A stretch of 64,000 bases of DNA from Burkholderia metallica. GTDB taxonomy: Bacteria > Pseudomonadota > Gammaproteobacteria > Burkholderiales > Burkholderiaceae. The notes below the pieces were generated by a model that saw only the letters and a program-made list of their open reading frames with translations, was not told where the DNA came from and did not search any database. Shown piece by piece: positions 665 through 16,435 of the stretch. The position numbers and the translations under genes were made by a program. Location of the stretch: NCBI RefSeq assembly GCF_902832845.1, contig NZ_CADFDB010000001.1:1-64000 (forward strand). The letters run 5' to 3'. Each line of letters opens with the position of its first letter. Position 1 is the first letter of the stretch.

Positions 665-2528
<1,864 letters not shown>

Positions 2529-2545
<17 letters not shown>

Positions 2546-2843
2546 AGACGTTGCACCAGCCTTCGGCGGCCACCGCCTTGCCCGCGAACATCGGGCATGT
2601 GCCGACGGATTCCCCGGCTGCGGCCTTGTAGAAGCGGCAGTTCGAACACGTCTGGCCGGCCTGATACTTCGGAAACTTGCCTGTATCGACAGTCGTTGCC
2701 TTGGCGCGGTAGCCGAGCGTCTTCGCTGCCGCGTCGTTTTCGTCGACGGGCGGCGCGGCGGCGAACGCGCGGGTGCCGGCTGCGAGTGCGGCGCACAGGC
2801 CGGCAGCCTGCGCGAAGAAGATTCTGCGATTGCGGGAAATCAT
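2529..2843 (-). CDS. High-potential iron-sulfur protein (HiPIP)
   Basis: Small periplasmic electron carrier with one [4Fe-4S] cluster, 104 residues. The N-terminus has an RNRRIFF twin-arginine-like motif, a hydrophobic stretch and an Ala-rich cleavage region, as expected for export of a folded iron-sulfur protein. The mature part has the four cluster cysteines in the HiPIP pattern: CSNC, then CPMF, then WCNVYAK near the end. It sits between the quinoprotein/cytochrome pair and the sigma factor on one strand, so it could take electrons downstream of the cytochrome. A terminator-like hairpin separates it from the cytochrome gene, so it may have its own promoter. Confidence 0.9.
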
Positions 2844-2863
2844 GGGGTCATCCTGAACGAAGT

Positions 2864-2893
2864 GAAAGAAAAAGCCCGGCCCGCGCGCCGGGC
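2864..2893 (-). terminator. Rho-independent terminator after the dehydrogenase/cytochrome pair
   Basis: A perfect 7-bp G+C stem (GCCCGGC/GCCGGGC) with a 6-base loop is followed on the minus strand by the T-rich run TTTTTCTTTC. It lies just past the cytochrome fusion gene and before the HiPIP start, so it should end the alcohol dehydrogenase transcript. Confidence 0.75.
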
Positions 2894-2940
2894 GTGCGTC
2901 CCGGCGCGGCGGTCTGCCGAAGCGAAAGCGGGCGGGAAGG

Positions 2941-4146
2941 TTACTTGCGCGGCCCGGCGATGAGCGGCGCCTTCGATGCGTTGGCGATATCGGCGGTCAG
3001 CTTGCCCTTCGACGCGTCGTAGCCGTTCGAGTACAGCAGGAACGCCATCAGGTCTTCGTATTCCTGTGCCGTCATCTTGCCGGGGCGATCGGCCGGCATG
3101 TTGCTCGACATGTACAGGAAGATGCCGCCCACCGTGATATGCGACTTGCCCTCGGGAGCGAACGCCTCGCCGCTCAGCGCGGGAGCCGTATTGCCCTCGA
3201 GCTGGTCGCCGTGGCATTTCGCGCAGGCGTCGGCGTAGAGCTTCCTGCCGTGCTGCACCTGGGTCTCGTCGAACGACGGGATGCCGCTGCCTTCGCCGGT
3301 CGACACCTTGATGAAGCCGGTCCCTGCCGGCCGCTGCGTGGACGCGATCGCGCCGTCGAGAAACCTGCCGGGCGTCCGTGCGGCGGCCGCTTGCGCGACG
3401 GACTCGGGAAGCGTCCATCCGCGCGTGAGCGACGCGAGGCGGCCGTCGCCGCTCATCGTCGTCAGCGCGGCGTCGATGCGCTGTTGCAGCGCGACCTTGC
3501 CCGGCCCGAATGCGAACGACAGTTGCCAGTCGGAGTACGGCGACGAGGTTGCCGCGACCCGGAAGTGCAATGGCCGGTGTGCGTGCTCGTATGCGACGAC
3601 GCTCGGATACCAGACGATCGCGCGCTGTGCGCGACCGGCGGCGAGCGCGCCGATCGTTTTCTCGCTGGTGTTTTCGAGGTCGAAGCGGGCATTCGCCTGC
3701 TGCGCGGCGATCAGTTGCGACGGGCTACCGTACGTGGCGGCGATCGTTTCCTTCGCACCGGACGGCGCCTGCGCATCACGCAGCGACACGCTGACGTAGC
3801 CGGAGCGCAGGTAGCCCTGCGAGAACGTCATCTTCGATCCCGACGCATCGGCGATGGCCGAGCGCGGGAAGCCGGCGATCACGTCGCAATCGCGTTCGAG
3901 CGATTTCGTCAGCTCGCCGGCGGAGATGCCGTCGTCGTCGCCGTTGTCGTCGACGCCGCGCTTGTTGAAGGTTGCAGCGATGCCCGCGGTGCGGAACACT
4001 TCGCGTGCGACGGATCGGTCGAGTGCCGTGGTCGGGCTGCCGGGCAGCGTGCAGATGCGCACGCCGGCCGCCGCGGCTGTCGGTGTCATCGCCACGCCCA
4101 CGGCGAGCAGACTGGCGACGGTAACGGAAGTGAGACGAGTATTCAT
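2941..4146 (-). CDS. Periplasmic-binding-protein domain fused to cytochrome c (XoxJ/XoxG-like fusion)
   Basis: Exported 401-residue protein with a signal peptide (about residues 1-27). Residues about 28-265 resemble a type 2 solute-binding fold as in MxaJ/XoxJ proteins: the domain opens with VRICTLP and contains a CDVIAGFPRSA segment. A class I cytochrome c domain follows, with the haem motif CAKCH at residues 308-312 and a likely distal Met in SSNMPADRPGKM. In methanol dehydrogenase systems the binding-protein partner (J) and the cytochrome (G) are separate genes; here both sit in one chain. The gene follows the quinoprotein dehydrogenase by 79 bases. The inferred job is electron acceptance from PQQ and help in maturing or docking the enzyme. 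The start chosen is the ATG before the signal peptide; longer upstream starts give no exportable N-terminus. Confidence 0.82.
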   Translation of the reverse strand: MNTRLTSVTVASLLAVGVAMTPTAAAAGVRICTLPGSPTTALDRSVAREVFRTAGIAATFNKRGVDDNGDDDGISAGELTKSLERDCDVIAGFPRSAIADASGSKMTFSQGYLRSGYVSVSLRDAQAPSGAKETIAATYGSPSQLIAAQQANARFDLENTSEKTIGALAAGRAQRAIVWYPSVVAYEHAHRPLHFRVAATSSPYSDWQLSFAFGPGKVALQQRIDAALTTMSGDGRLASLTRGWTLPESVAQAAAARTPGRFLDGAIASTQRPAGTGFIKVSTGEGSGIPSFDETQVQHGRKLYADACAKCHGDQLEGNTAPALSGEAFAPEGKSHITVGGIFLYMSSNMPADRPGKMTAQEYEDLMAFLLYSNGYDASKGKLTADIANASKAPLIAGPRK

Positions 4147-4225
4147 GGTCGTGTGTCCGGTTGAAGCGGGTGGGCGTCGCGCCCGCATCGGGCGCATGCG
4201 GGCGCGACTCGGGCCTGGCGTGCGT

Positions 4226-5947
4226 TCAGTCGAGCGCGAACACGTAGAGCGTGCCGCCGCGCGGAACGTCCTTCGCGATGTCGGCCATCGGGCCGCCCCA
4301 GATCGGGTTCGCGCCGCCATAGCCGGCAAGCACGGCGACATACTCCTTGCCGTCGACCTCGTACACGGACGGCTGCGAAATGATGCCGCTCGCCAGTTGC
4401 GGGCTTTCCCAGAGCACCTTGCCGGTCGTCGTGTCGAACGCGTACAGGTGGCCGTCGAGCGAACCGCTGAACGCGAGGCCGCTCGCGGTGGTCGCGACGC
4501 CGCCGTTCCACGGCTTCTTCGACCAGTGGCTCCACAGCTTCTTGCCGGTGTTCACGTCGATGGCCGTCAGCTCGCCGTAGCCTTCGCTGCCCGGTTCGGG
4601 CTTGATCTCGAAGCCTTCGCCGAGATACGGCAGGCCTTCCATGTAGCTGACCGACTTGCCGGTCAGGCTCATGCACGCATGTAACGCGGGCACGACCGCG
4701 ATGTTGCGTTCCTGGTCGTACGAGATCGACCACCAGTTCTTGCCGCCGAGGAAGCTCGGGCACGTTTCGATCGTCGTGCCGGCCTTCGGGAACTTCGATT
4801 CGTCCTGGATCGGCTTGCCTTCGGCCGTGTAGCCGGTGACCGACAACGCCTTCACGAACGGGGTCGCGTAGATCAGCTTGCCGGTGGTGCGGTCGATCGC
4901 ATGGAAGAAGCCGTTGCGGTCCGCGTGAATGATCGCGTCGTAGTCCTTGCCCTTGTACTTGATGTCGGCAAGGACGGCCGCGTTCACGCCGTCGTAGTCC
5001 CACGTGTCGTTGTTGGTGTACTGGTAGTGCCACTTCAGGTTGCCGTTCTTCGCATCGAGCGCGAGCAGCGAGTCGGAATACAGGTTGTCGCCGGGGCGCA
5101 GCGCCGCGAGCCACGGGCCGGGGTTGCCGACACCCCAGTACAGCGTGCGGGACGCGGCGTCGTACGTGCCGGTGAGCCACGCGGCGCCGCCGCCATGGCT
5201 CTGCATGCCGTCGGGCCACGTTTCGGCGCCTTTTTCGCCGGCAGCGGGGATCGTGTAGCGTTTCCAGACCTGTGAGCCGTCCTCTGGATTCAGCGCGGTG
5301 ATGTACCCGCGAATTCCGTATTCGCCGCCGGACGTGCCGACGACGATCGCGCCGTCGATCGCGAGCGGTGCGAGCGAGAACGCGTAGCCGAGGCCCGGCT
5401 CGAACATCTGCTTCTTCCACACGAGATTGCCGGTCTGCGCGTCGAGCGCCGCGATTTCGCCGCTCAGCATCGCGATGTAGACGTTCTTGCCGTACAGCGC
5501 GACGCCGCGGTTGACGACGTCGCAGCATGCGGTCTTGAACGATGCCGGACCGAGCTTCGGCTCGTACTTCCACAGCTGCCTGCCGGTCTTCGCGTCGAAC
5601 GCATAGACGTTGTCCTTCGGCGTCGTCACGAACAGATAGTTGCCGTTGACGATCGGCGTGGCCTCGAAGCCTTGCTTCAGGTCGGCGGGGAACTTGTACG
5701 CCCACACCTGCTTGAGATCCTTCGCGTTCGACGTGTCGATCTGCTTGAGCGGCGAGTGCGAGCGGCCGTCGTAGGTGCGGTAGTAGGTGAGCCAGCCGGG
5801 ATCGCCATGCGCATCGGTCAGGCGCTGGTAGGTCACGGCCGGATAGTCCGCGGCCGCTTCGACGAGGCCGGGGTTCAGCGCGACGGCGGCCGCCACCGCG
5901 ATTCCGATCGTCGCCAGCCGGCTCGCTGAAGCCGAGAATTTCTTCAT
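4226..5947 (-). CDS. PQQ-dependent alcohol dehydrogenase, predicted lanthanide-dependent type
   Basis: Periplasmic type I quinoprotein, 573 residues, oxidising a primary alcohol to the aldehyde with PQQ and passing electrons to a cytochrome c. It has a signal peptide (cleavage near VEAAADYP) and repeated beta-propeller Trp-docking-like segments. The adjacent cysteines C141-C142 (TACCDVV) form the disulfide facing PQQ in this family. The active-site segment NNDTWDYDGVN has the catalytic Asp at 317 and a second Asp at 319; that extra Asp marks lanthanide-using enzymes (XoxF, ExaF, PedH), whereas calcium enzymes have Ala or Ser there. There is no C-terminal haem domain. The start is the ATG six bases after AGGAGA. 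The gene is preceded by a sigma-54 promoter and followed by the cytochrome fusion. The substrate (methanol, ethanol or other) cannot be fixed from sequence. Confidence 0.9.
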   Translation of the reverse strand: MKKFSASASRLATIGIAVAAAVALNPGLVEAAADYPAVTYQRLTDAHGDPGWLTYYRTYDGRSHSPLKQIDTSNAKDLKQVWAYKFPADLKQGFEATPIVNGNYLFVTTPKDNVYAFDAKTGRQLWKYEPKLGPASFKTACCDVVNRGVALYGKNVYIAMLSGEIAALDAQTGNLVWKKQMFEPGLGYAFSLAPLAIDGAIVVGTSGGEYGIRGYITALNPEDGSQVWKRYTIPAAGEKGAETWPDGMQSHGGGAAWLTGTYDAASRTLYWGVGNPGPWLAALRPGDNLYSDSLLALDAKNGNLKWHYQYTNNDTWDYDGVNAAVLADIKYKGKDYDAIIHADRNGFFHAIDRTTGKLIYATPFVKALSVTGYTAEGKPIQDESKFPKAGTTIETCPSFLGGKNWWSISYDQERNIAVVPALHACMSLTGKSVSYMEGLPYLGEGFEIKPEPGSEGYGELTAIDVNTGKKLWSHWSKKPWNGGVATTASGLAFSGSLDGHLYAFDTTTGKVLWESPQLASGIISQPSVYEVDGKEYVAVLAGYGGANPIWGGPMADIAKDVPRGGTLYVFALD

Positions 5948-6037
5948 GGTTGTCTCCTGGGTCATTGTGGTCGCACCGCCGCGCACGTTTCGTCGCGCCG
6001 GCACGGTTGGGTTCCGGGCCGAGTGCACTGCCTGTTA

Positions 6038-6053
6038 CGCAAATCGCATGCCA
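6038..6053 (-). promoter_or_regulatory. Predicted sigma-54 (-24/-12) promoter of the alcohol dehydrogenase
   Basis: On the minus strand the sequence is TGGCATG-N4-TTGCG, against the consensus TGGCACG-N4-TTGCW. The essential GG and GC doublets have the required 10-base spacing. The predicted transcript start leaves about 80 bases of leader before the dehydrogenase ATG. The sigma-54 activator gene lies 4 kb away in the same cluster. Confidence 0.62.
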
Positions 6054-6139
6054 TTGCGGCGCGAGCGCGGTGTGGCGCGGCATACCGGGGCATCGCAGGC
6101 GATGTGTCGATGGACGACGCGCGCCATGGCGCTCGCGAA

Positions 6140-6190
6140 GGTGTTGCATTCGGATACACCGCCGCGCACGAAGTGTTGCCAAACATGACA
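6140..6190. promoter_or_regulatory. Candidate upstream activator sites between dehydrogenase and TonB receptor
   Basis: Two motifs lie about midway between the divergent sigma-54 promoters. One is a dyad, GGTGT...ACACC (arms at the ends of 6140-6160). The other is GTGTTGCCAAACATGACA (6173-6190). Read in reverse the second is TGTCA-TGTTTG-GCAACAC, which resembles TGTCA-AGTT-GCAACAC in front of pqqA. The distances of about 90-150 bases to each -24 element suit an enhancer-binding activator. The rest of the 434-base intergenic space shows no gene. Confidence 0.45.
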
Positions 6191-6289
6191 GGTGGCGCAG
6201 GACGCAGCACGGTGGGCGGTCGCCGTCGCCGGTGCATGCCGTTCGAATGCGGTGCGCGGTGCCGTGCGTGCCGCATGCGCTCGCCGCGC

Positions 6290-6305
6290 TGGCACGGTTT
6301 TCGCA
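6290..6305 (+). promoter_or_regulatory. Predicted sigma-54 (-24/-12) promoter of the TonB-dependent receptor
   Basis: The sequence TGGCACG-GTTT-TCGCA matches the sigma-54 consensus with one change in the -12 half (T to C) and keeps the GG-N10-GC spacing. It would give a leader of roughly 65 bases before the receptor start codon. Confidence 0.55.
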
Positions 6306-6381
6306 CGCCAGCATCGCGACAACCCGTCGCGCGCGGTACCTCGTACCGGGTGGGCGGAATACAAATAGGGAGACGACGGAA

Positions 6382-8712
6382 ATGATCAGGAGACCAAAGG
6401 CAGGCGGACGACACGGCGCGATGCGAAGCGACCGGCGTGCGCAATGCGTCGGCACGACCCTCGGGGCGCTCGCGCTGTTCGGCATGTCGCCCGGTGGGGC
6501 GCACGCGCAGCAGCAGGCGGACGGCGCCGCCCTCGCGCCGCACGAGTCGACCGTCATGCTGCCTGCGGTGGTCGTCGTCGGCACGACGCCGCTGCTCGGG
6601 ATCGGCACGCCGCTGTCGAAGGTGCCGGCGAACGTGCAGACGGTGCGCGCGGCGGAACTCGACGTGCAGCACCGCGCGACGCTCGCCGATTTCTTTGCCG
6701 CGAACCTGCAGAGCGTGACGATTTCGGACGCGCAGGGCAACGCGTACCAGACGGACGTCAACTATCGCGGCTTCACCGCGTCGCCGCTGCTCGGCACGCC
6801 GCAGGGATTGTCGGTGTTCGTCGACGGCGTGCGCGTGAACGAGCCGTTCGGCGACGTCGTGAACTGGGACATCCTGCCGATGCAGGCGATCGATCGCGTG
6901 CAGCTGATTCCGGGCTCCAACCCGGTATACGGGCGCAATACGCTCGGCGGCGCGCTCGCGATCACGACGAAGAACGGCAAGTCGAATCCGGGCGGCGAAG
7001 CGGAGGTGTCGGGCGGCGCGTGGGGTCGCAAGACCGCGGGCATCGAGCAGGGCGGGACGATTGGCTCGAACCTCGACTACTACGCGACCGCGAACGTCGC
7101 GAACGACGGCGGCTGGGCGGACCATAATGCGAGTCGCGTGCGGCAGGCGTTCGGCAAACTGCGCTACACCGATGCGGACACGACGCTGTCGATCGCCGCA
7201 GGCGGCGCGGACAACACGCTGTCCGGCACCCAGACGATCCCGCGCTCGTTCCTCGACAACCCGAGGCAGGCGTACACGTATCCCGACCGGAACCGCAACA
7301 TCGCCGGATACCTGACGCTGTCCGGCGACCGTTTTTTCGGCGAGCAGGTCGAGTTGAGCGGCAATGCGTACTACCGGCACCTGCGTAACACCAACACCAG
7401 CAGCAACAACAATACGGACTACGGATCGGCGGACGATGACGGAGCAGTTGACACGCTGCAAGGCAGCAATGCACGATCGACGGTCGTTACCGACAGCTAC
7501 GGCGGCAGCGTGCAACTCACGCTGCTCGGCAAGCTCGGCGGGATGGCGAACCGGTTCGTCGCGGGCGTTTCGGCGGATGTCGCGAACTCGAGCTACGTCG
7601 CGTCGTCGCAGGACGCGTATTTCACCGATGCGCGCGCGGCAATCGGCCTCGGCGATTTCGTCCAGCAGACCAGTGCGAAGACGCGCAATGCGAATTTCGG
7701 CGTATACATGAGCGACGCACTGTCGCTGACGCCGCACTGGACGCTGACCCTGTCGGGCCGCTACGACTGGTCGAAAGCGCAGGTCGGCGACGAGAGCGGC
7801 ATGCAGCCGCTGCTCGACGGCAACCATGTGTTCTCGCGCCTGAACCCGGCGGTCGGGCTCAACTGGAACCCGATCGCGGGTATCACCGCGTATGCGGCCT
7901 ACAACGAAGGCATGCGTTCGCCGACCGCGATCGAACTCGCCTGCGCGGATCCCTCCGCCCCGTGTTCGCTGCCGAACGACTTTATCGCCGACCCGGCGCT
8001 CAGGCCGGTGATTTCGAAGACGTTCGAAGCCGGCGTGCGTGGCCGCATCGGCGCCGCGACGACCTGGAGCGCCGCGGCCTATCGCACGACGTTGACCGAC
8101 GATATCCAGTTCATCAGCAGCCCGGCGAGCGCGCAGGGCTATTTCCGCAACGTCGGCGATACGCGGCGGCAGGGCATCGAGCTCGCAGGCCATACGCGGC
8201 TCGGCCTGCTCGGCGTCGGGCTGTCGTACAGCTACGTCGATGCGACTTACCGATCGTCGTGGACCGAACACAGCCCGGCGAATTCGGCGGCGGACGCAAG
8301 CGGCAACGTGACGGTCAAGCCGGGCGATCGCATTCCCGGTATTCCCGCGCATACGATCAAGCTGCGGCTCGACTATGCGGCAACGCCGGCGTGGGACATC
8401 GGCACGAATCTCACGTGGCGCGGCGGCGTCTACGCGCGCGGCGACGAGAACAACGCGGACGTCAACGGCAGGCTCGCGGGGTACGTGCTGGTCGACCTCG
8501 ACATGCGCTACCGGATCACGAAGCGGTTCGAGGTGTTCGCGAGCGTGACGAACCTGCTCGACAAGCGCTACGCGAGCTTCGGCGCGCTTGGCCAGAATTT
8601 CTTCAACGGGCCGAACCACACGTTCAACGGCGCCAATCCGGTAAACGAACAGTTCGTCGGGCCGGGCGCGCCGCGCGGCGCATGGATCGGCGTGCGCTAT
8701 GCGTGGGATTGA
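6382..8712 (+). CDS. TonB-dependent outer-membrane receptor
   Basis: Outer-membrane beta-barrel receptor, 776 residues, for active uptake powered by TonB/ExbBD. It has a signal peptide ending near GGAHAQQQ. A plug domain at about residues 60-190 contains VDGVRVNEPFGD and the NPVYGRNTLGGALAITTKNG segment. The barrel holds the typical VTNLLDKRYASFG motif and ends in an aromatic-rich GVRYAWD strand. The start is the ATG eight bases after GGGAGA; an internal ATG 13 codons on also precedes the signal peptide. It faces away from the quinoprotein dehydrogenase and shares its control region, and a TonB-like gene ends the pqq operon. A lanthanide-chelate or PQQ substrate is an attractive inference, but siderophore-type substrates remain possible. 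Confidence 0.9.
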   Translation: MIRRPKAGGRHGAMRSDRRAQCVGTTLGALALFGMSPGGAHAQQQADGAALAPHESTVMLPAVVVVGTTPLLGIGTPLSKVPANVQTVRAAELDVQHRATLADFFAANLQSVTISDAQGNAYQTDVNYRGFTASPLLGTPQGLSVFVDGVRVNEPFGDVVNWDILPMQAIDRVQLIPGSNPVYGRNTLGGALAITTKNGKSNPGGEAEVSGGAWGRKTAGIEQGGTIGSNLDYYATANVANDGGWADHNASRVRQAFGKLRYTDADTTLSIAAGGADNTLSGTQTIPRSFLDNPRQAYTYPDRNRNIAGYLTLSGDRFFGEQVELSGNAYYRHLRNTNTSSNNNTDYGSADDDGAVDTLQGSNARSTVVTDSYGGSVQLTLLGKLGGMANRFVAGVSADVANSSYVASSQDAYFTDARAAIGLGDFVQQTSAKTRNANFGVYMSDALSLTPHWTLTLSGRYDWSKAQVGDESGMQPLLDGNHVFSRLNPAVGLNWNPIAGITAYAAYNEGMRSPTAIELACADPSAPCSLPNDFIADPALRPVISKTFEAGVRGRIGAATTWSAAAYRTTLTDDIQFISSPASAQGYFRNVGDTRRQGIELAGHTRLGLLGVGLSYSYVDATYRSSWTEHSPANSAADASGNVTVKPGDRIPGIPAHTIKLRLDYAATPAWDIGTNLTWRGGVYARGDENNADVNGRLAGYVLVDLDMRYRITKRFEVFASVTNLLDKRYASFGALGQNFFNGPNHTFNGANPVNEQFVGPGAPRGAWIGVRYAWD

Positions 8713-8766
8713 GCGCGGCGCGGTGGCGCGGGTCGTCGCGCCGCGATGCAGCCCGCGCGGGGGGCG

Positions 8767-9783
8767 TCACGGGAACGGCGCCGTCGCGAACATCGCACGC
8801 ACGGCGTGTGCGACGCTGCGCGCCAACGCGGGATCGCTTGCCAGATGTCCTGCCTTCACGCGCTCGATAACGACGTCGGGTGCGGCCCGCGCGAGGCGGT
8901 CGACGTTGTCGATCGGGCAGACGGGATCGTGCATCCCGTGCGCGGCGAACAGTGGCACCCCGGCCTGCACGGCCCGACGCGCGAGCGCGAGCACGCGGCG
9001 CTCGCCGAGCCAGCAATCGCGCTGCAGGTAGTGCGCCTGGATCCGGTATTTGTCGATCAGCAGGGCGGCGGTCTTGCCCGAGCGGACCGCACGCACCGGC
9101 GAGCGCCGTGTGCGTGACGATGCGAGGAGGGCGTTTTCGTACGCGTGCCATGCGAGCGCCACCGCGCGCTGTCGGCCCGTGCTCGCGCCGCGGCGCAACC
9201 GCTGCGCGCAGCGCGCCAGCAGGCGCTCCGGCGGCCCGCCGCCGGCTGCCGCATGCAGGCGCCGCCATTCGCGGGGCGCACGCGTGCGGGAGGTCATGAA
9301 CAGCCCGCGGATTTCGCGTGGCGACGTCAGGAACAGGCCGCGCAGTACGACACCGGTCACCCGCTCCGGATGCGTGCCCGCATACGCGAGCGCGAGCGCG
9401 GCGCCCCACGAGCCTCCTACGACGCCCCAGCGCGCAATGCCGAGCCGCTCGCGCACCGCCTCCAGATCGGCGATCAGCTGCGCGGTGCGGTTGTGACGCG
9501 TGCCGCCGCGCGGTGCCGACGCGCCCGCGCCGCGCTGGTCGACGAGCACGACACGCACGCGCGCGAGGTCGAACACTCGCAGGATGCCGGTCTGGCTGCC
9601 GCTGCCGGGCCCGCCGTGCAGCACGACGACCGGATGGCCCTGCGCGGCGCCGGCCGTTGCGAAGGCGATCGATTGCGCGTCACGACGCATGCGCCGGCGG
9701 GCAGGCGTTGCTCGCGACGTCGGTGTGTCGGGCGGGACCCGCAGCGCGGGCGACGGCGTGGAGGGAATCGGGCGACGCATCAT
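8767..9783 (-). CDS. Proline-iminopeptidase-like alpha/beta hydrolase (peptidase family S33)
   Basis: Cytoplasmic alpha/beta-hydrolase of the prolyl aminopeptidase group, 338 residues. The oxyanion-hole motif HGGPGSGS is followed by DQRGAGAS, as in prolyl iminopeptidases. The nucleophile elbow is GGSWGAALALAYA. The Asp is in HGMHDPVCPID and the His in KAGHLASD, completing the triad. The first 40 or so residues are Arg/Pro-rich and not conserved, so translation may begin further in; no good ribosome-binding site marks the annotated start. It is convergent with the TonB receptor and divergent from the sigma-54 activator. A direct role in alcohol oxidation is not evident. Confidence 0.82.
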   Translation of the reverse strand: MMRRPIPSTPSPALRVPPDTPTSRATPARRRMRRDAQSIAFATAGAAQGHPVVVLHGGPGSGSQTGILRVFDLARVRVVLVDQRGAGASAPRGGTRHNRTAQLIADLEAVRERLGIARWGVVGGSWGAALALAYAGTHPERVTGVVLRGLFLTSPREIRGLFMTSRTRAPREWRRLHAAAGGGPPERLLARCAQRLRRGASTGRQRAVALAWHAYENALLASSRTRRSPVRAVRSGKTAALLIDKYRIQAHYLQRDCWLGERRVLALARRAVQAGVPLFAAHGMHDPVCPIDNVDRLARAAPDVVIERVKAGHLASDPALARSVAHAVRAMFATAPFP

Positions 9784-9932
9784 GGCGATAGGGTTCTGGC
9801 GGAATCGGGAGGCGTGAACGTTGACGGCCGTGCAGCCTGATCTGTGTCAAAGCCAGAAACGCGCCAGCCGCGAAGATCGGGATTCGCACGGGTAGTCACG
9901 CGCCGGGAAATCGCGGTATCACCGGGGCCATG

Positions 9933-9946
9933 CTGTCGCGCGACAG
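9933..9946. promoter_or_regulatory. 14-bp perfect palindrome in the hydrolase/activator intergenic region
   Basis: CTGTCGCGCGACAG is a perfect dyad in the 287-base divergent space between the hydrolase and the sigma-54 activator. A second TGTCA element follows directly. It could be an operator for either gene or for autoregulation by the activator. No consensus is assigned. Confidence 0.3.
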
Positions 9947-10070
9947 TGTCAGGACGACTTTATTACGTCGTGCTTTCGGTTCGTGCCGCGGAGCCGGCGT
10001 GGCCCGATGCTTGCTTGCAACCAGGGCAAAGAGCCCGGCAATTGACCGGAACGATTCCCCGGAGGAGACG

Positions 10071-12089
10071 ATGCGCGAAGACGTAGAGCAGGCGGCCGGG
10101 TCACCGGCCGCGCATCCCGCTGGCTGGCCCGCGCCGTCGATCCAGAAGGCCCACGAGCGCTCGGAGACGTTCGGCCTGCAGGTAACGGCACGTCCCGACT
10201 ACGATGTGCTGTCGAACTCGGCGCTGGTGCTGAAGCGCGAGCAGAGCCGGGTGCTGTGCGTGCACGCGATGCCGGTGATGGAGACGTTGCACGAGCAGAT
10301 CGTCAACACGCAGAGCATGATCGTGCTGACCGATGCGGAAGGGCTGATCCTGCATTCGATCGGCGACGACGACTTCCTGCGCCGCGCGGAGAAGGTTGCG
10401 CTGCGCCCGGGCGCGAACTGGGCGGAGAACCGGCAGGGCACCAACGCGATCGGCACGGCGCTGGCCGAGCTGTGCCCGATGGTCGTCCACGGCGACCAGC
10501 ATTTCCTGGCCGCGAACCGCTTCCTGACCTGTTCGAGCGTGCCGATCCTCGATCCGTATGGCGATGCGATCGGCGTGCTCGACGTGACAGGCGACCACCG
10601 TGGCTATCACCAGCACACGATGGCGCTCGCGAAGATGTCGGTCCAGATGATCGAGAATCATCTGTTTACGACGACCTTTCAGGAAACGCTGCAGGTGTCG
10701 TTTCATGGGCGCCCCGAATTCCTCGGCACGCTGATGGAAGGGATCGTCGCTTTCACCGCCGACGGTCGCTTCCTGTCGGCCAATCGCAGCGCTCAGTTCC
10801 AGCTCGGCATGCCGCTCGCTGCGCTGCGCGCGCACACGCTGTCGTCCCTGTTCGACGTCACGAGTGCGCAACTGATCGACCGTATGCGCGCGAACACGGA
10901 CCGGCACCTGACGCTCAATCTGGGCAACGGCGCGGTGGTCTGCGCGCGCGTGCACTTTCGCCGCGTGACGCTCGCCGAAGGCAGCCGGCCGACGGACGTG
11001 CACGACGCGGCGCAGGCCGCGCGCGCGAACGCGGCGCCCGCTCCGGCGGCGGCCAAGTCGGCCTGCCTGTCGCGGCTCAATTATCTCGACACCGGCGATG
11101 CGCAGGTCGCCAGCGTGATCGCGAAGGTGCGCAAGGTGATCGGCAAGGACATCCCGATCCTGATCACCGGCGAGACCGGCACCGGCAAGGAGCTGCTCGC
11201 GCAGGCGATCCACAACGACTCGCCGCGGCGCGATGCACCGTTTGTCGCGGTCAACTGCGCGTCGATTCCGGAGACGCTGATCGAGTCCGAGCTGTTCGGC
11301 TACGAGGAGGGCGCGTTCACCGGCGCGCGCCGCAAGGGGGCGGTCGGCAAGCTGCTGCAGGCGAATGGCGGCACGCTGTTTCTCGACGAGATCGGCGACA
11401 TGCCGTATCCGCTGCAGGTGCGGCTGCTGCGCGTGCTGCAGGAGCGCCTCGTCAACCCGCTCGGGTCGACGAAGACGATCGCGGTGGACATCGCGATCAT
11501 CTGCGCAACGCACCGCGATTTGCGCGACATGATCGCGCAGAACCGTTTTCGCGAGGATCTCTACTACCGGTTGAACGGCCTCGTGGTGCGCCTGCCGCCG
11601 TTGCGCGACCGCACGGATCTCGAGGTCGTCGTGCAGAAGATGCTGCAACGGGAAGCGTTCGCGAGCCCGGGCCGGCCGCCGCTGTCGGTCGCCCCGGACG
11701 TGATGGCGCTGTTCGAGCGCTGTGCGTGGCCGGGCAACTTCCGCCAGCTCGGCAACCTGCTGCGCACGGCGGCCGCGATGGTCGACGACGATGGAGAAAT
11801 CCGGCGCGAGCATCTGCCCGACGACTTCTTCGACGACCTGCGACGCGACGATGCGCCGGCCGTGTCCGATCCGGCCGCCGCGGCGAGTGCCGGACCCGGC
11901 GTCGCGGACGCGTTCCCGCCTGCCGACGCGCGGCTGCAGGACGTGGCCGCGTCGGCGATCGCCGCGGCGCTGGCCCGTCACGGCGGCAACGTCTCCGCCG
12001 CGGCGCGCGCGCTCGGCGTATCGCGCAACACGATCTACCGGAAGATGCCGACGGTCGACCCGGAGCGCCACCCGTCGGACGAAAGCTGA
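10071..12089 (+). CDS. Sigma-54-dependent activator, AcoR-like (GAF-AAA+-Fis HTH)
   Basis: Bacterial enhancer-binding protein of 672 residues that drives open-complex formation at sigma-54 promoters. A GAF sensor region spans about residues 60-220, with a PAS-like segment following at 225-310. The AAA+ domain has Walker A GETGTGKE at about 367 and the sigma-54 contact loop GAFTGA at 414-419 (GAFTGARRKGAVGK, the longer loop of AcoR-type proteins). The C-terminal Fis-type HTH reads NVSAAARALGVSRNTIYRKM. No receiver domain is present, so a small ligand rather than phosphorylation probably controls it. The ATG follows GGAGGAG closely; an earlier in-frame start lacks this. It lies directly before the pqq promoter, so pqq genes and the dehydrogenase are the likely targets. 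Confidence 0.92.
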   Translation: MREDVEQAAGSPAAHPAGWPAPSIQKAHERSETFGLQVTARPDYDVLSNSALVLKREQSRVLCVHAMPVMETLHEQIVNTQSMIVLTDAEGLILHSIGDDDFLRRAEKVALRPGANWAENRQGTNAIGTALAELCPMVVHGDQHFLAANRFLTCSSVPILDPYGDAIGVLDVTGDHRGYHQHTMALAKMSVQMIENHLFTTTFQETLQVSFHGRPEFLGTLMEGIVAFTADGRFLSANRSAQFQLGMPLAALRAHTLSSLFDVTSAQLIDRMRANTDRHLTLNLGNGAVVCARVHFRRVTLAEGSRPTDVHDAAQAARANAAPAPAAAKSACLSRLNYLDTGDAQVASVIAKVRKVIGKDIPILITGETGTGKELLAQAIHNDSPRRDAPFVAVNCASIPETLIESELFGYEEGAFTGARRKGAVGKLLQANGGTLFLDEIGDMPYPLQVRLLRVLQERLVNPLGSTKTIAVDIAIICATHRDLRDMIAQNRFREDLYYRLNGLVVRLPPLRDRTDLEVVVQKMLQREAFASPGRPPLSVAPDVMALFERCAWPGNFRQLGNLLRTAAAMVDDDGEIRREHLPDDFFDDLRRDDAPAVSDPAAAASAGPGVADAFPPADARLQDVAASAIAAALARHGGNVSAAARALGVSRNTIYRKMPTVDPERHPSDES

Positions 12090-12131
12090 CACGCGGGCCA
12101 CGCGGTATCGGCCGTCGCGCGGCGCGCGACC

Positions 12132-12189
12132 TGTCACAACCGGTGTGTCAAGTTGCAACACCGGTGTTCAACGTTTCAACACCTGTCAC
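12132..12189. promoter_or_regulatory. Cluster of dyad repeats, likely upstream activator sites for the pqq promoter
   Basis: Three related elements are packed into 58 bases: TGTCACAACCGGTGTGTCA, then the perfect 12-bp palindrome AACACCGGTGTT within a longer near-dyad, then GTTTCAACACCTGTCAC. The end is about 130 bases before the -24 element, typical for enhancer-binding protein sites. The activator gene ends 43 bases before the cluster. The remaining sequence up to pqqA holds no other clear signal. Confidence 0.6.
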
Positions 12190-12318
12190 CCCCGGACGCC
12201 GCGCGCGGTCGGGGCGGCGGACTGCATTCGCGCGAATCGTGTCGGCTGTTCGTAAGGTCGGCGGCCCGATGCCCGGATGATGGCCGCAGGCCGCCGCCTG
12301 GCCGCGAAAGTGCGACAT

Positions 12319-12334
12319 CGGCACGCTCCTTGCT
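12319..12334 (+). promoter_or_regulatory. Predicted sigma-54 (-24/-12) promoter of the pqq operon
   Basis: CGGCACG-CTCC-TTGCT differs from the consensus TGGCACG-N4-TTGCW only at the first base, with exact GG-N10-GC spacing. It gives a leader of about 65 bases before pqqA. It is the best sigma-54 match I found in the window. Confidence 0.72.
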
Positions 12335-12410
12335 GATGAGGAACCGACCGCATGATTGCCGCGGTTGTTCGACTCACCCAGCAACGCATCAACTCAACAG
12401 GAGACACACC

Positions 12411-12485
12411 ATGCAGTGGACGACACCGTCATACACCGACCTGCGCTTCGGCTTCGAAATCACGATGTACATCGCCAACCGCTGA
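12411..12485 (+). CDS. pqqA: PQQ precursor peptide PqqA
   Basis: The 24-residue ribosomal substrate from which pyrroloquinoline quinone is made. The conserved glutamate (E16) and tyrosine (Y20) lie in FGFEITMY, the E-x-x-x-Y arrangement that PqqE cross-links. The ATG is eight bases after AGGAG. It is first in pqqABCDE and about 60 bases precede pqqB. The coding length and sequence are typical of proteobacterial PqqA. Confidence 0.96.
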
Positions 12486-12546
12486 TCGCCGTGCGTGCCG
12501 CCCGTTTCGCCGTGGTCGGCGCGGGCGGCCTCGGGAGCTGACGCCC

Positions 12547-13470
12547 ATGAAGATCAAGATACTCGGCTCGGGAGCCGGCGGCGGGCTGCCGCAATGGAAC
12601 TGCAATTGTGCGAACTGCCGCCGTGCGCGCAGTGGAAGCGGCCACGTGTTGTCGCGCACGCAGTCGTCGATCGCGGTCAGCGACGACGGCATCGACTGGG
12701 TCCTCGTCAACGCGTCGCCCGACATTCTTGCCCAGTTGCGCGCCGATCCGGACCTGCAGCCGGCGCGCGCGATCCGCGACAGCGGCATCGCGGCCGTCGT
12801 GCTGTGCGACGCGCAGATCGATCACGTGACGGGCCTGCTGATGCTGCGCGAGCGATCGGCGCCGTTGCCGCTCTACGCGAGTGCGCCGGTGCTCGACGAT
12901 CTGTCGACCGGCTTGCCGCTCGTGCCGCTGCTCGGCCATTACTGCGGCGTCGCCGCTCATACGATCACCCCCGGCGAGGCGTTTTCGGTGCCGGCGGCGA
13001 GCGGGATTCGTTTCACCGCGATTGTCGTCGACAGCAAGCCGCCGCCTTATTCGCCGCGGCGCGCGTCGGCCGCACCCGGCGACAATATCGCACTGTCGAT
13101 CGAAGACGTCGCGAGCGGGCGGCGCGCGTTCTATGCGCCGGGGCTCGCGGCGGTCACCGACGACGTGCGTGCTGCGATGGACGGCGCCGATCTCGTGCTG
13201 GTGGACGGCACGTTCTGGACCGGGACCGAGATGATCGATCTCGGCTTGTCGGCCAAGCACGCGGCCGACATGGGGCACCTCGCGCAGTGCGCGGAACACG
13301 GGCGGCCCGGCATGATCGACTGGCTCGATACGCTGCCCGCGCAGACGCGCAAGGTGCTCACGCACATCAACAACACGAACCCGATTCTCGATCCGCATTC
13401 CGTCGAGCACGCGCACCTGCGCGCGCATGGCATCGACGTCGCTCACGACGGCATGCAATTCCAGGTCTGA
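12547..13470 (+). CDS. pqqB: PQQ biosynthesis protein PqqB
   Basis: Metallo-beta-lactamase-fold protein of 307 residues, proposed to hydroxylate or otherwise process the PQQ precursor. It opens with [18 protein letters not shown], the family signature with paired cysteines, and retains the later DGTFW and HINNTNPIL segments. The usual HxHxDH motif of hydrolases is altered (DAQIDHVTG), as is normal for PqqB. The start is the ATG two codons after an upstream TGA; a modest GGGAG lies 11 bases before it. The stop is two bases before pqqC. Confidence 0.96.
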
Positions 13471-13472
13471 CG

Positions 13473-14192
13473 ATGAACGCACCGATCCCCGCTACGGCGT
13501 TGCACGCGACGCCCTGGAACGCGACCGAATTCGAGGCGCGACTGCGTGCGCTCGAATCGCGCTATCACATCCATCATCCGTTCAACCGGCGGCTCAACAG
13601 CGGAGCATGTTCGCCCGCGCAGATCCGCGGTTGGGTCGCGAACCGCTTCTACTACCAGATCAGCATCCCGCTCAAGGATGCCGCGATCCTGTCGAACTGC
13701 CCCGACCGCGACACGCGACGCCGCTGGGTCCAGCGGCTGATCGACCACGACGGGCAGGGCGACCACGAAGGCGGCATCGAGGCGTGGGTGCGGCTCGGCG
13801 AGGCATGCGGGCTCACGCGTGCCGAACTGTGGTCGCTCGAACACGTGCTGCCCGGCGTGCGCTTCGCGGTGGACGCGTACGTGAACTTCGCGCGGCGCGC
13901 GCCGTGGCAGGAAGCCGTGTGCTCGTCGCTGACCGAGATGTTCGCGCCGCAGATCCATCTCGACCGGCTCGCGGGCTGGCCGTCGCATTACCCGTGGATC
14001 GAGCCCGCCGGGCTGCACTATTTCCGCAGCCGGGTGCCGCTCGCGCAGCGCGACGTCGAACACGGGCTCGCGGTCACGCTGGCGCATTTCACGACACCGG
14101 ATGCGCAGCAGCGCGCGCTCGGCATTCTGCAATTCAAGCTCGACATTTTGTGGTCGATGCTCGACGCCGTCGAAAAGGCCTACCCCCTATGA
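13473..14192 (+). CDS. pqqC: PQQ synthase PqqC
   Basis: Cofactor-free oxidase (239 residues) that catalyses the final ring closure and eight-electron oxidation of the intermediate to PQQ using O2. The fold is all-helical, related to haem oxygenase and TenA. The family segments [34 protein letters not shown] and [15 protein letters not shown] are all intact and contain the ligand-binding His and Tyr residues. The length is usual for a stand-alone PqqC without a fused PqqD. Its stop overlaps the pqqD start by four bases (ATGA), so the two should be translationally coupled. Confidence 0.97.
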
Positions 14193-14470
14193 ACGCGATC
14201 GAAGCTGCCAGCGGCGTACCGCTGCGCCCCTGCCTCCGGGGCATGTACCGACTGCAATGGGAGGCGGCGCAGGATGCGTACGTGCTCCTCTATCCGGAGG
14301 GCATGGTCAAGCTCAACCCGAGTGCGGGCGAGATTCTCGCGCGCTGCGACGGCACGCATGAACTGGACGACATCATCGGCGAACTCGAGCGCCTGTTCAG
14401 GCAATCGGATCTGGCGACCGACGTCTACCGTTTCCTCGATCATGCGCGCCTGCGCGGCTGGCTCGACTGA
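14189..14470 (+). CDS. pqqD: PQQ biosynthesis chaperone PqqD
   Basis: Peptide chaperone of 93 residues that binds PqqA and presents it to PqqE. The segments [20 protein letters not shown] and a C-terminal [16 protein letters not shown] match the RRE-type winged fold of PqqD. The gene starts inside the pqqC stop and ends one base before pqqE, so the three are tightly packed. It is a separate gene here, unlike the PqqC-PqqD fusions of some methylotrophs. Confidence 0.96.
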
Positions 14471-14471
14471 C

Positions 14472-15611
14472 ATGGCCCCCGACACTTCACGCCCGTCCGC
14501 GCCGCTGTGGCTGCTCGCGGAACTCACGTACCGGTGCCCGCTGCACTGTGCGTTCTGCTACAACCCCGTTGATTTCGCGACGCATGGCGCGGAACTCGAC
14601 ACCGATGCGTGGCGCACGGTCATCAGCGATGCGCGCGCGCTCGGCGCCGCGCAAATCGGCTTCTCGGGCGGCGAGCCGCTGCAGCGCGGCGACCTCGAGA
14701 CGCTCGTCGCGCATGCGCGCGGGCTCGGCTTCTATACGAACCTGATCACGTCGGGCATCGGGCTGAACGTCGCGCGCATCCAGCGGCTCAAGGAGGCCGG
14801 GCTCGACCACATCCAGTTGTCGCTGCAGGATTCGACGCGCGAACTGAACGATTTCCTGACCAGCACGCGCACGTTCGAACTGAAGCGCGGCGTGGCGCGG
14901 CTGATCAAGGCGCACGGCTACCCGATGGTGCTCAACTGCGTGCTGCATCGCTACAACCTGCCGCACGTGGGGCAGATCATCGAGATGGCGCTCGACCTCG
15001 GCGCCGATTACCTGGAACTCGCGAACACGCAGTATTACGGGTGGGCGATGCTCAATCGCGACCAACTGATGCCGACCGTCGAGCAGGTGCGCGAGGCCGA
15101 GGAAACGGTGAACCGCTATCGCAAGCTGGTCGGCGAGCGCTGCCGGATCCTGTTCGTCGTGCCCGACTATTTCGAGCATCGCCCGAAGGCCTGCATGAAC
15201 GGCTGGGGCTCGGTATTCGTCGGCGTCGCGCCGGACGGTACCGCACTGCCGTGTCACGCCGCGCGATCGCTGCCGGGGCTCGCGTTGCCGAACGTACGCG
15301 ACCGGTCGCTGAAGGAAATCTGGTACGACAGCGACGCGTTCAACGCGTTTCGCGGCGACGACTGGATGCGCGAGCCGTGTCGCACGTGCGACGAGCGACA
15401 TGCGGATCACGGCGGTTGCCGGTGTCAGGCTTACCTGCTGGCCGGCGACCCGAAGGAGGCCGATCCGGTGTGTGCGAAGTCCGCCCATCACGGCCAGGTC
15501 GAGCAGGCGGTGCAATTCGCGCGACGTGGCACGACGCGCGACGAACAGCCGCTGGTTTTCCGCAGCCGGGAGAATTCGCTCGCGCAATGCGGAGCGACGC
15601 CCGACTGCTGA
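14472..15611 (+). CDS. pqqE: PqqA peptide cyclase PqqE (radical SAM)
   Basis: Radical S-adenosylmethionine enzyme (379 residues) that forms the carbon-carbon bond between Glu and Tyr of PqqA. The [4Fe-4S] motif CPLHCAFC lies at about residues 21-28, preceded by LAELTYR. The C-terminal SPASM region supplies auxiliary-cluster cysteines in LPCHAARSLPG, CRTCDERHADHGGCRCQA and DPVCAKS. The length is normal. It is the last pqq gene; no pqqF protease is present, so an unlinked peptidase must process the product. A TonB-like gene follows after about 70 bases in the same direction. Confidence 0.97.
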   Translation: MAPDTSRPSAPLWLLAELTYRCPLHCAFCYNPVDFATHGAELDTDAWRTVISDARALGAAQIGFSGGEPLQRGDLETLVAHARGLGFYTNLITSGIGLNVARIQRLKEAGLDHIQLSLQDSTRELNDFLTSTRTFELKRGVARLIKAHGYPMVLNCVLHRYNLPHVGQIIEMALDLGADYLELANTQYYGWAMLNRDQLMPTVEQVREAEETVNRYRKLVGERCRILFVVPDYFEHRPKACMNGWGSVFVGVAPDGTALPCHAARSLPGLALPNVRDRSLKEIWYDSDAFNAFRGDDWMREPCRTCDERHADHGGCRCQAYLLAGDPKEADPVCAKSAHHGQVEQAVQFARRGTTRDEQPLVFRSRENSLAQCGATPDC

Positions 15612-15679: not shown

Positions 15680-16435
15680 ATGCATTCCTATTCATATCGC
15701 TGGCGAGGGTCGGGCGGGCAAGGACGGCCGGGCGGCATGCGCATCGTGTTGGCTGTCGCTGCGACCTGTGTGATGCATGCGGGCGTATTCATGCTGCTCG
15801 CACGCGAACCGGTGGCGCGCAGCGTGCCCGTGCAACGTCGACTGATGATGGCGATACTGATTGCGCCGGCCCCGGAGGGGGCGACAAGGGCGCCTGTCGC
15901 GGCGCCGTCGAAGGCCGCGTCACGCGCGCTGCATCGCGCCGTGCCTGCGGCCCGATCGTCGCAGAGCGGCAAGTCGCCGGCGATCAAACCCGTCGCGCCC
16001 GATCGCGCCGGACCGCCGGCCCATGATGCGTCGACGCCGTTACGGCCCGTGCCGGCCGCTACGTCGGTCGAGCGACGCAGCATGCCCGACGACGATCCGA
16101 GTCCCAACGCCGGGCAGACGCGAGCCGTCTCGCACGCAATTCCGGCATCCGCGCTGCCGCGCTTCGTCGTGCATCCCGAATGCGTGCTCGCTCCACCCGA
16201 CTACCCGCCGCAGTCGCTGCGCACGGGCGAGCATGGCACGGCGCTCGTCGAGCTGGAGACCGATGCGGCGGGCAGGGTCGTTGCCGCGCGTGTCGTGACA
16301 GGCAGCGGCTATCCGCGTCTCGACGCGGCAGCGCGCGAAGCCGCGCTGGCGAGCCGCTGCACGCCGTACTTGGAGAATGGCGCGCCGTCGCCGATGCGGG
16401 CGCGCGTGCCCGTTACGTTCAATCTCGATGAATGA
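15680..16435 (+). CDS. TonB-like energy-transducing protein
   Basis: Inner-membrane anchored TonB family protein, 251 residues. One membrane helix (about residues 23-42, VLAVAATCVMHAGVFML) is followed by a Pro/Ala-rich periplasmic linker. The C-terminal TonB domain is at about 165-251, with the signature PPDYPPQSLRTGEHGTALVE and a terminal VPVTFNLDE strand. It would transmit proton-motive force to an outer-membrane receptor. The ATG chosen has TGGAG eight bases before it; an ATG seven codons upstream is an alternative. It directly follows pqqE, so it may serve the receptor divergent from the dehydrogenase. No exbB or exbD gene is nearby. Confidence 0.85.
   Translation: MHSYSYRWRGSGGQGRPGGMRIVLAVAATCVMHAGVFMLLAREPVARSVPVQRRLMMAILIAPAPEGATRAPVAAPSKAASRALHRAVPAARSSQSGKSPAIKPVAPDRAGPPAHDASTPLRPVPAATSVERRSMPDDDPSPNAGQTRAVSHAIPASALPRFVVHPECVLAPPDYPPQSLRTGEHGTALVELETDAAGRVVAARVVTGSGYPRLDAAAREAALASRCTPYLENGAPSPMRARVPVTFNLDE

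Follow-up and report, generated by a model that had tools for sequence, protein, structure and literature searches.

A conserved lanthanide-type PQQ alcohol dehydrogenase lineage in Burkholderia, as read from sequence, with a fused binding-domain/cytochrome partner and sigma-54-type promoter sites

Most of what is known about the biology of rare earths comes from methylotrophs and Pseudomonas. The closest described systems centre on alcohol dehydrogenases that use pyrroloquinoline quinone (PQQ): XoxF; PedH of P. putida and ExaF of M. extorquens, which are PQQ alcohol dehydrogenases of type 2b; and the calcium ethanol dehydrogenases ExaA and PedE. Beside xoxF lie xoxG, encoding a cytochrome, and xoxJ, encoding a binding protein, an arrangement resembled by the locus described here. 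This locus lies in the window, a stretch of 64,000 nucleotides from Burkholderia metallica (contig NZ_CADFDB010000001.1, positions 1 to 64,000), and its central gene (4226..5947, minus strand) encodes a PQQ-dependent alcohol dehydrogenase with a D-Y-D metal site (E209, N275, D317 and D319, with the cysteine pair C141-C142). We read the locus as specifying a periplasmic lanthanide-type PQQ alcohol dehydrogenase with a fused partner, co-regulated with a TonB-dependent receptor and with PQQ synthesis, and assign this reading a probability of about 0.7. With its aligned ligands and their conservation, a distinct clade, co-inheritance with its partner and conserved sigma-54-type sites all evident in the comparisons below, the enzyme belongs, on sequence grounds, to a genuine lanthanide-type dehydrogenase lineage that is both conserved and distinct and whose partner is fused in an unusual way.

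The gene runs from a start codon at 5947 to a stop codon at 4228-4226 and its product comprises 573 amino acids, numbered here as the unprocessed protein. The original prediction had placed it at 4226-5947; these coordinates are correct, but the gene is on the minus strand, a plus-strand reading being ruled out by stops in the first plus-strand frame. The active-site segment it had quoted, NNDTWDYDGVN with Asp317 and Asp319, is present exactly as written. The protein exceeds the cut-off of TIGR03075 (PQQ-dependent methanol/ethanol dehydrogenase; 564.4 versus 480.05 bits) and its best solved-structure match is the lanthanide enzyme PedH 6zcw (E 4e-126), two PedH entries being its top solved relatives; the D-Y-D segment is therefore not a chance match. 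No other protein of this genome scores above the TIGR03075 cut-off, so no calcium-type paralogue was found in it. The host resembles the Burkholderia cepacia complex: the closest named records, at 98% protein identity, come from B. cenocepacia, B. seminalis and B. anthina.

The metal site was placed in detail by aligning the protein with six named structures, which are represented here and in the tree only by the parts printed in the structure matches. All six match E209, N275 and D317. At position 319, PedH 6zcw has Asp, as do XoxF 6dam and 4mae; ExaA 1flg has Ser, MxaF 1g72 Ala and the quinohaemoprotein alcohol dehydrogenase 1kb0 Thr. D317 and D319 align column for column with the D-F-D of PedH and the D-Y-D of XoxF, which bears out the earlier proposal that the second Asp occupies the lanthanide position: D319 stands in the metal-ligand column of both enzymes. 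With the type 2b enzymes (PedH being the one compared) the dehydrogenase shares the aligned ligands, the second Asp and the Cys-Cys pair; with XoxF it shares the D-Y-D segment; and ExaA, of the same fold and 41% identical, differs in having Ser in place of D319. Both cysteines and all four ligands are retained by every one of the 80 orthologues that carry organism names; these, like the 80 loci discussed below, are the best 80 of 230 relatives found. The protein thus shows the lanthanide-type pattern, in which a second Asp follows the catalytic one at a distance of two residues and the Glu and Asn ligands are kept. In the excerpts of the literature on which we draw throughout, the Ser/Asp difference at this position is tied to calcium versus lanthanide use in PedE and PedH (PMC5487730), and the D-x-D motif is treated as a sign of at least facultative lanthanide use (PMC11996626). 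The AlphaFold model of the dehydrogenase is poor at the active site and so permits no judgement of metal geometry, and VIA-align does not separate lanthanide from calcium enzymes.

The original prediction had grouped the dehydrogenase with XoxF, ExaF and PedH, which proved too loose. In the tree it falls in a separate clade, fully supported (100/100) and set on a long stem, that is distinct from the XoxF/MxaF, PedH/ExaA and quinohaemoprotein groups, and it is 31-41% identical to its solved relatives. Membership of XoxF is ruled out by this separate 100/100 clade and an identity of 36%. Membership of the type 2b group is likewise ruled out: PedH, to which the enzyme is approximately 41% identical, ExaA and their relatives form a 100/100 group of seven rows that excludes it, in a tree that contained no ExaF row. 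The tree left out L126, L127, L131 and L132 (paralogues) and all but 12 rows of the clade. Since the tree leaves some deep forks unresolved, and long branches elsewhere in it drew a warning from the tool, the sister group of the clade is not settled. A type number for the clade may already exist in Keltjens 2014.

The clade is also set off by identity. Across 299 genomes of the family, full-length matches fall from 73% directly to 43%, and matches outside the genus at E <=1e-120 among 398 genomes of the phylum are 40-43% identical. A plasmid collection yielded 15 records at 79.8% identity or above, all from Burkholderia, Paraburkholderia or Caballeronia, the other 569 lying below 60%. Within the genus, 27 of 41 sampled genomes have the clade dehydrogenase. 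A set of PQQ dehydrogenases from Burkholderiaceae (L121-L125, L130), whose metal site reads D-L-D, forms a long-branched clade of its own. A further protein from a congeneric genome (L128, G240:C134:18023-19654) groups with the quinohaemoprotein reference; in its segment GENSDYDAT, Asp takes the place of the Thr found in the solved quinohaemoprotein, and the protein is possibly a lanthanide-type quinohaemoprotein.

Directly downstream of the dehydrogenase lies a gene (2941..4146, minus strand), annotated as a 'hypothetical protein' in a public relative, that encodes a binding-protein domain (approximately residues 27-250) followed by a c-type cytochrome domain (CAKCH at residue 308). The original prediction mentioned neither this gene nor the sigma-54-type sites described below. 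A match to this fusion gene directly follows the dehydrogenase in 77 of the 80 loci, the exceptions being L044, L048 and L051. Of the 299 family genomes, 79 have both genes, and one genome departs from this pattern in each direction: G215 has no listed clade dehydrogenase and a weak dehydrogenase match (E 1.6e-31), and G227 has no fusion gene and its dehydrogenase only as fragments (70% and 50% identity). The cytochrome half occurs alone in G114 and G251, both counted in the 79, and in the second copy present in G044; at each of these loci (L142, L143 and L144, the last at G044:C2) it adjoins the dehydrogenase, a state that represents either loss or an older form of the fusion. The cytochrome half is XoxG-like in its CAKCH haem c motif and its Pfam Cytochrome_CBB3 score of 43.5 bits, and scores only 25 versus 148 bits on the MoxG model. 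The binding-protein half is XoxJ-like by fold and position, having a periplasmic binding-protein fold and adjoining a PQQ alcohol dehydrogenase gene; on the XoxJ/MoxJ family model (TIGR03871, MoxJ_2) the fusion protein scores 21.4 bits, below the cut-off of 212.15. Three other proteins of the genome score higher on MoxJ_2, at 26-34 bits; considered as stand-alone XoxJ candidates, none of these loci comes near the cut-off. XoxG and XoxJ/PedG likewise place a cytochrome c domain and a binding-protein fold beside a PQQ alcohol dehydrogenase, and the window protein differs from them in being one polypeptide, in its low score on the XoxJ family model and in an acidic loop. Fusion of the two partner domains and the sigma-54-type promoter described below also distinguish the locus from those of XoxF and PedH/ExaF. 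An unfused counterpart exists at L117 (G087:C9), where a tandem of two divergent D-x-D dehydrogenases is accompanied by two cytochromes and a stand-alone binding protein.

The acidic loop, [DG]DDG[VI]S..EL at residues 70-79, is near-invariant: DDG, S and L are found in 76 of 76 full-length rows and E in 75 (partial proteins came only from L029, L043, L044 and L051). In the unfused dehydrogenase-J-G order of L117 the J protein has no such loop, which, together with this conservation, speaks against its being no more than a helix cap. Nevertheless, it is probable that the loop merely caps one of the helices of the binding-protein fold, with no part in metal binding. A predicted helix begins at residue 76, directly after the loop, so that S75..E78 would fit a helix-cap box, and D-x-D before this helix is also found in amino-acid binding proteins. 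A canonical EF-hand (DxDxDG.[ILV]...E) is ruled out: the C-terminal half of the pattern fits, but positions 1 and 3 are not kept. A search of the genome for a lanmodulin-like helper gave no EF-hand_7 match.

Two observations weigh against the lanthanide reading of this locus. Firstly, the other PQQ enzyme of the genome, a membrane-bound dehydrogenase of the glucose/quinate/shikimate family (G000:C2:83427-85319; L002:646-3228, minus strand; TIGR03074, 1042 versus a cut-off of 833 bits), also has D-Y-D, in the segment HDLWDYDVP. Secondly, membrane glucose dehydrogenase (mGDH) carries the motif and is linked with Ca, Mg, Zn and Sr, and is predicted to be promiscuous (PMC11996626). D-x-D is thus a strong but not sufficient predictor of lanthanide use, imperfect because a membrane-bound enzyme of the same genome reads WDYD and mGDH is described as accepting other metals. 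One could accordingly suppose that the dehydrogenase is metal-promiscuous or calcium-dependent in the cell, tolerating its second Asp as mGDH does, and that the locus has no lanthanide link; isolates with xoxF, for example, grow with Ca as well as with Ce (PMC5606694). We consider this unlikely, given that residue 319 separates lanthanide from calcium enzymes in six of six soluble references (with metal labels taken from entry titles and recall) and that D319 is invariant across the 80 orthologues. Lanthanide use by the dehydrogenase is the likely alternative.

The dehydrogenase gene is preceded by a sigma-54-type -24/-12 promoter, TGGCATGCGATTTGCG (6038..6053, minus strand; 9 of 11 consensus bases), with two candidate activator-binding dyads further upstream: TGTATCCGAATGCAACA (6142..6158, minus), which contains a GCAACA half-site, and TGTCATGTTTGGCAACA (6174..6190, minus). 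A TonB-receptor gene diverging from it has its own sigma-54-type promoter, TGGCACGGTTTTCGCA (6290..6305, plus strand; 10 of 11 bases), and a candidate promoter of the same type, CGGCACGCTCCTTGCT (12319..12334, plus; 9 of 11 bases), precedes the pqq operon. We scanned 400 bp upstream of each gene for at least 9 of 11 consensus bases, requiring GG and GC, and took the expectation from base shuffles. A -24/-12 site was found upstream of the dehydrogenase in 81 of 81 regions (1.7 expected); for the TonB receptor the count was 21 of 37 loci and for pqqAB 25 of 40, each against an expectation of 1.3. The same scan gave 0/25 for the hydrolase, 0/38 for the high-potential iron-sulphur protein (HiPIP), 0/36 for pqqE and 1/77 for the fusion gene.

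The GCAACA half-site of the 17-bp dyad occurs in 76 of 81 dehydrogenase upstream regions against 9.1 expected. Its extended form GCAACAC is present in 66/81 dehydrogenase (2.1 expected), 30/40 pqq (2.4) and 25/37 receptor regions (1.9), receptor and dehydrogenase sharing one upstream region where they diverge. These counts measure conservation rather than independent events, since the loci are related and the shuffles keep base composition only. Exact inverted repeats were tried as an alternative measure; the commonest, GGTGT-N11-ACACC, occurs in only 11 of 81 regions, and the half-site count was used instead. No sigma-70 promoter was found in 2400-12600, where 0.7 were expected. A candidate regulator, a GAF/AAA+/Fis sigma-54 activator by its Pfam domains, is encoded nearby (9930..12089, plus strand; start codon uncertain) and matched within 68 of the 80 loci. 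By sequence the dehydrogenase gene therefore has both marks of sigma-54 control, a -24/-12 promoter and an activator gene in its vicinity. Before the activator gene itself, GCAACAC is found in 12 of 67 regions (3.5 expected) and the promoter scan gave 3/68 versus 1.7 expected, so this gene is not shown to be sigma-54-controlled.

The divergent gene (6382..8712, plus strand) encodes a TonB-dependent outer-membrane receptor with Pfam Plug and barrel domains. Relatives at E <=1e-60 occur in 35 of the 398 phylum genomes, including this genome and one congener. Neighbourhoods of up to 20 kb on each side were examined in 20 of the other 33 genomes; in G582 and G441 the contig stops short on one side. 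A D-x-D PQQ dehydrogenase lies within 20 kb of the receptor relative in 10 of the 20: three are XoxF-like (64-69% identity), three PedH-like with DFD and four more distant, G576 being counted through an mGDH-like enzyme and a distant homologue. The remaining neighbourhoods contain only a T-type enzyme (one), only pqq genes (two) or neither (seven). The chance of at least 10 of 20 was computed at assumed rates of 7% and 10%.

This context fits a receptor for a metal or a metal-PQQ complex. It is also possible, if on balance doubtful, that the receptor is a PqqU homologue that imports PQQ, and that the regulon concerns PQQ supply rather than metal supply. The nearest solved structures of the receptor are indeed YncD/PqqU (83 bits), and the literature reports PqqU-pqq synteny in four Burkholderiales genomes while proposing metal co-import for some homologues (PMC12124388). 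However, the receptor scores 106 bits on the PqqU family model (NCBIfam NF041535), far under the cut-off of 1200. The PqqU signature comprises an aromatic residue at position 99 together with R304 and R365 (PMC12124388); position 99 aligns with Leu in the receptor and is Leu or Val in those relatives whose motif is readable (34 of 42). Furthermore, the strain itself encodes pqqABCDE.

Under the lanthanide-type reading, we propose the following model. The active-site metal, most probably a light lanthanide, would be held by E209, N275, D317 and D319 together with PQQ, and the periplasmic dehydrogenase would oxidise a small primary alcohol, probably ethanol-like, to the aldehyde. Electrons would pass to the cytochrome half of the fusion protein and on to the respiratory chain, perhaps via HiPIP. 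The binding-protein half may help to load or hold the apo-enzyme, along the lines of the chaperone idea put forward for XoxJ/MxaJ/PedG (PMC12997753). The GAF/sigma-54 activator near pqqABCDE would turn on the dehydrogenase, the TonB receptor and PQQ synthesis together, and the receptor would take up a metal or a PQQ complex. The activator type, together with an aldehyde dehydrogenase that flanks the cluster of both P. xenovorans LB400 and L142, suggests a two-step alcohol-to-acid route with an ethanol-like substrate. A more far-reaching proposal would make this a further lanthanide-dependent family of alcohol oxidation, distinct from both XoxF and PedH/ExaF, in Burkholderiaceae that have no calcium enzyme to fall back on, with a fusion protein that acts both as a metal/PQQ-loading chaperone (through its acidic loop) and as electron acceptor, and one sigma-54 activator for metal uptake, PQQ synthesis and the enzyme. 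We regard this full combination as quite improbable, and have lowered our estimate of it because of the ranking of the binding-protein half on MoxJ_2.

The neighbourhood of the dehydrogenase reads as one PQQ/alcohol system. The pqq genes, all on the plus strand, comprise pqqA, presumably the precursor-peptide gene in view of its E...Y motif (12411..12485, 24 amino acids), pqqB (12547..13470; TIGR02108, 393 versus 245 bits), pqqC (13473..14192; TIGR02111, 337 versus 240 bits), pqqD (14189..14470; TIGR03859, 114 versus 46 bits) and pqqE (14472..15611; TIGR02109, 523 versus 381 bits), and are followed by a gene for a TonB-family protein (15680..16435, plus; TIGR01352, 53 versus 27 bits). Between receptor and activator lies an alpha/beta hydrolase gene resembling prolyl aminopeptidase (8767..9783, minus strand), matched within 28 of the 80 loci. 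HiPIP, a possible further electron carrier (2529..2843, minus; Pfam HIPIP, 80 bits), is matched within 38. Adjoining its gene is one for an RpoD-like sigma factor of 626 amino acids (665-2545, minus; 449 bits versus the RpoD cut-off of 555), with a homologue within 19 of the 80 loci.

If the lanthanide reading is true, rare-earth use reaches species of Burkholderia, Paraburkholderia, Caballeronia and Trinickia, including genomes that, like this one, have no calcium-type paralogue. The fused binding-domain/cytochrome protein would then offer a simple handle on the assembly of apo-enzyme, PQQ and metal and on the encounter of the reduced enzyme with its electron acceptor. Among open-licence PMC papers, none of the matches listed treats, in the text retrieved, the enzyme of this clade as a lanthanide enzyme, and a search there for lanthanide, Paraburkholderia and PQQ together returned no paper. 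Related work describes MDH2, an enzyme of Burkholderiales, as well as two pathways for formaldehyde in B. phymatum and LB400 (PMC7356819).

Stink-bug symbionts have been reported to possess a conserved cluster in which a PQQ dehydrogenase is accompanied by four pqq genes (PMC7397029; PMC9088363), the excerpts making no mention of lanthanides. In the plasmid collection, records from stink-bug gut symbionts carry the present clade. The copy inspected has only pqqD alongside the dehydrogenase, so its identity with the published cluster is not established. The symbionts with this clade include Paraburkholderia from Physopelta gutta and Caballeronia insect-gut symbionts (L221, AP028202.1, PPGUF2_67280, and H4-H7 and H12-H13).
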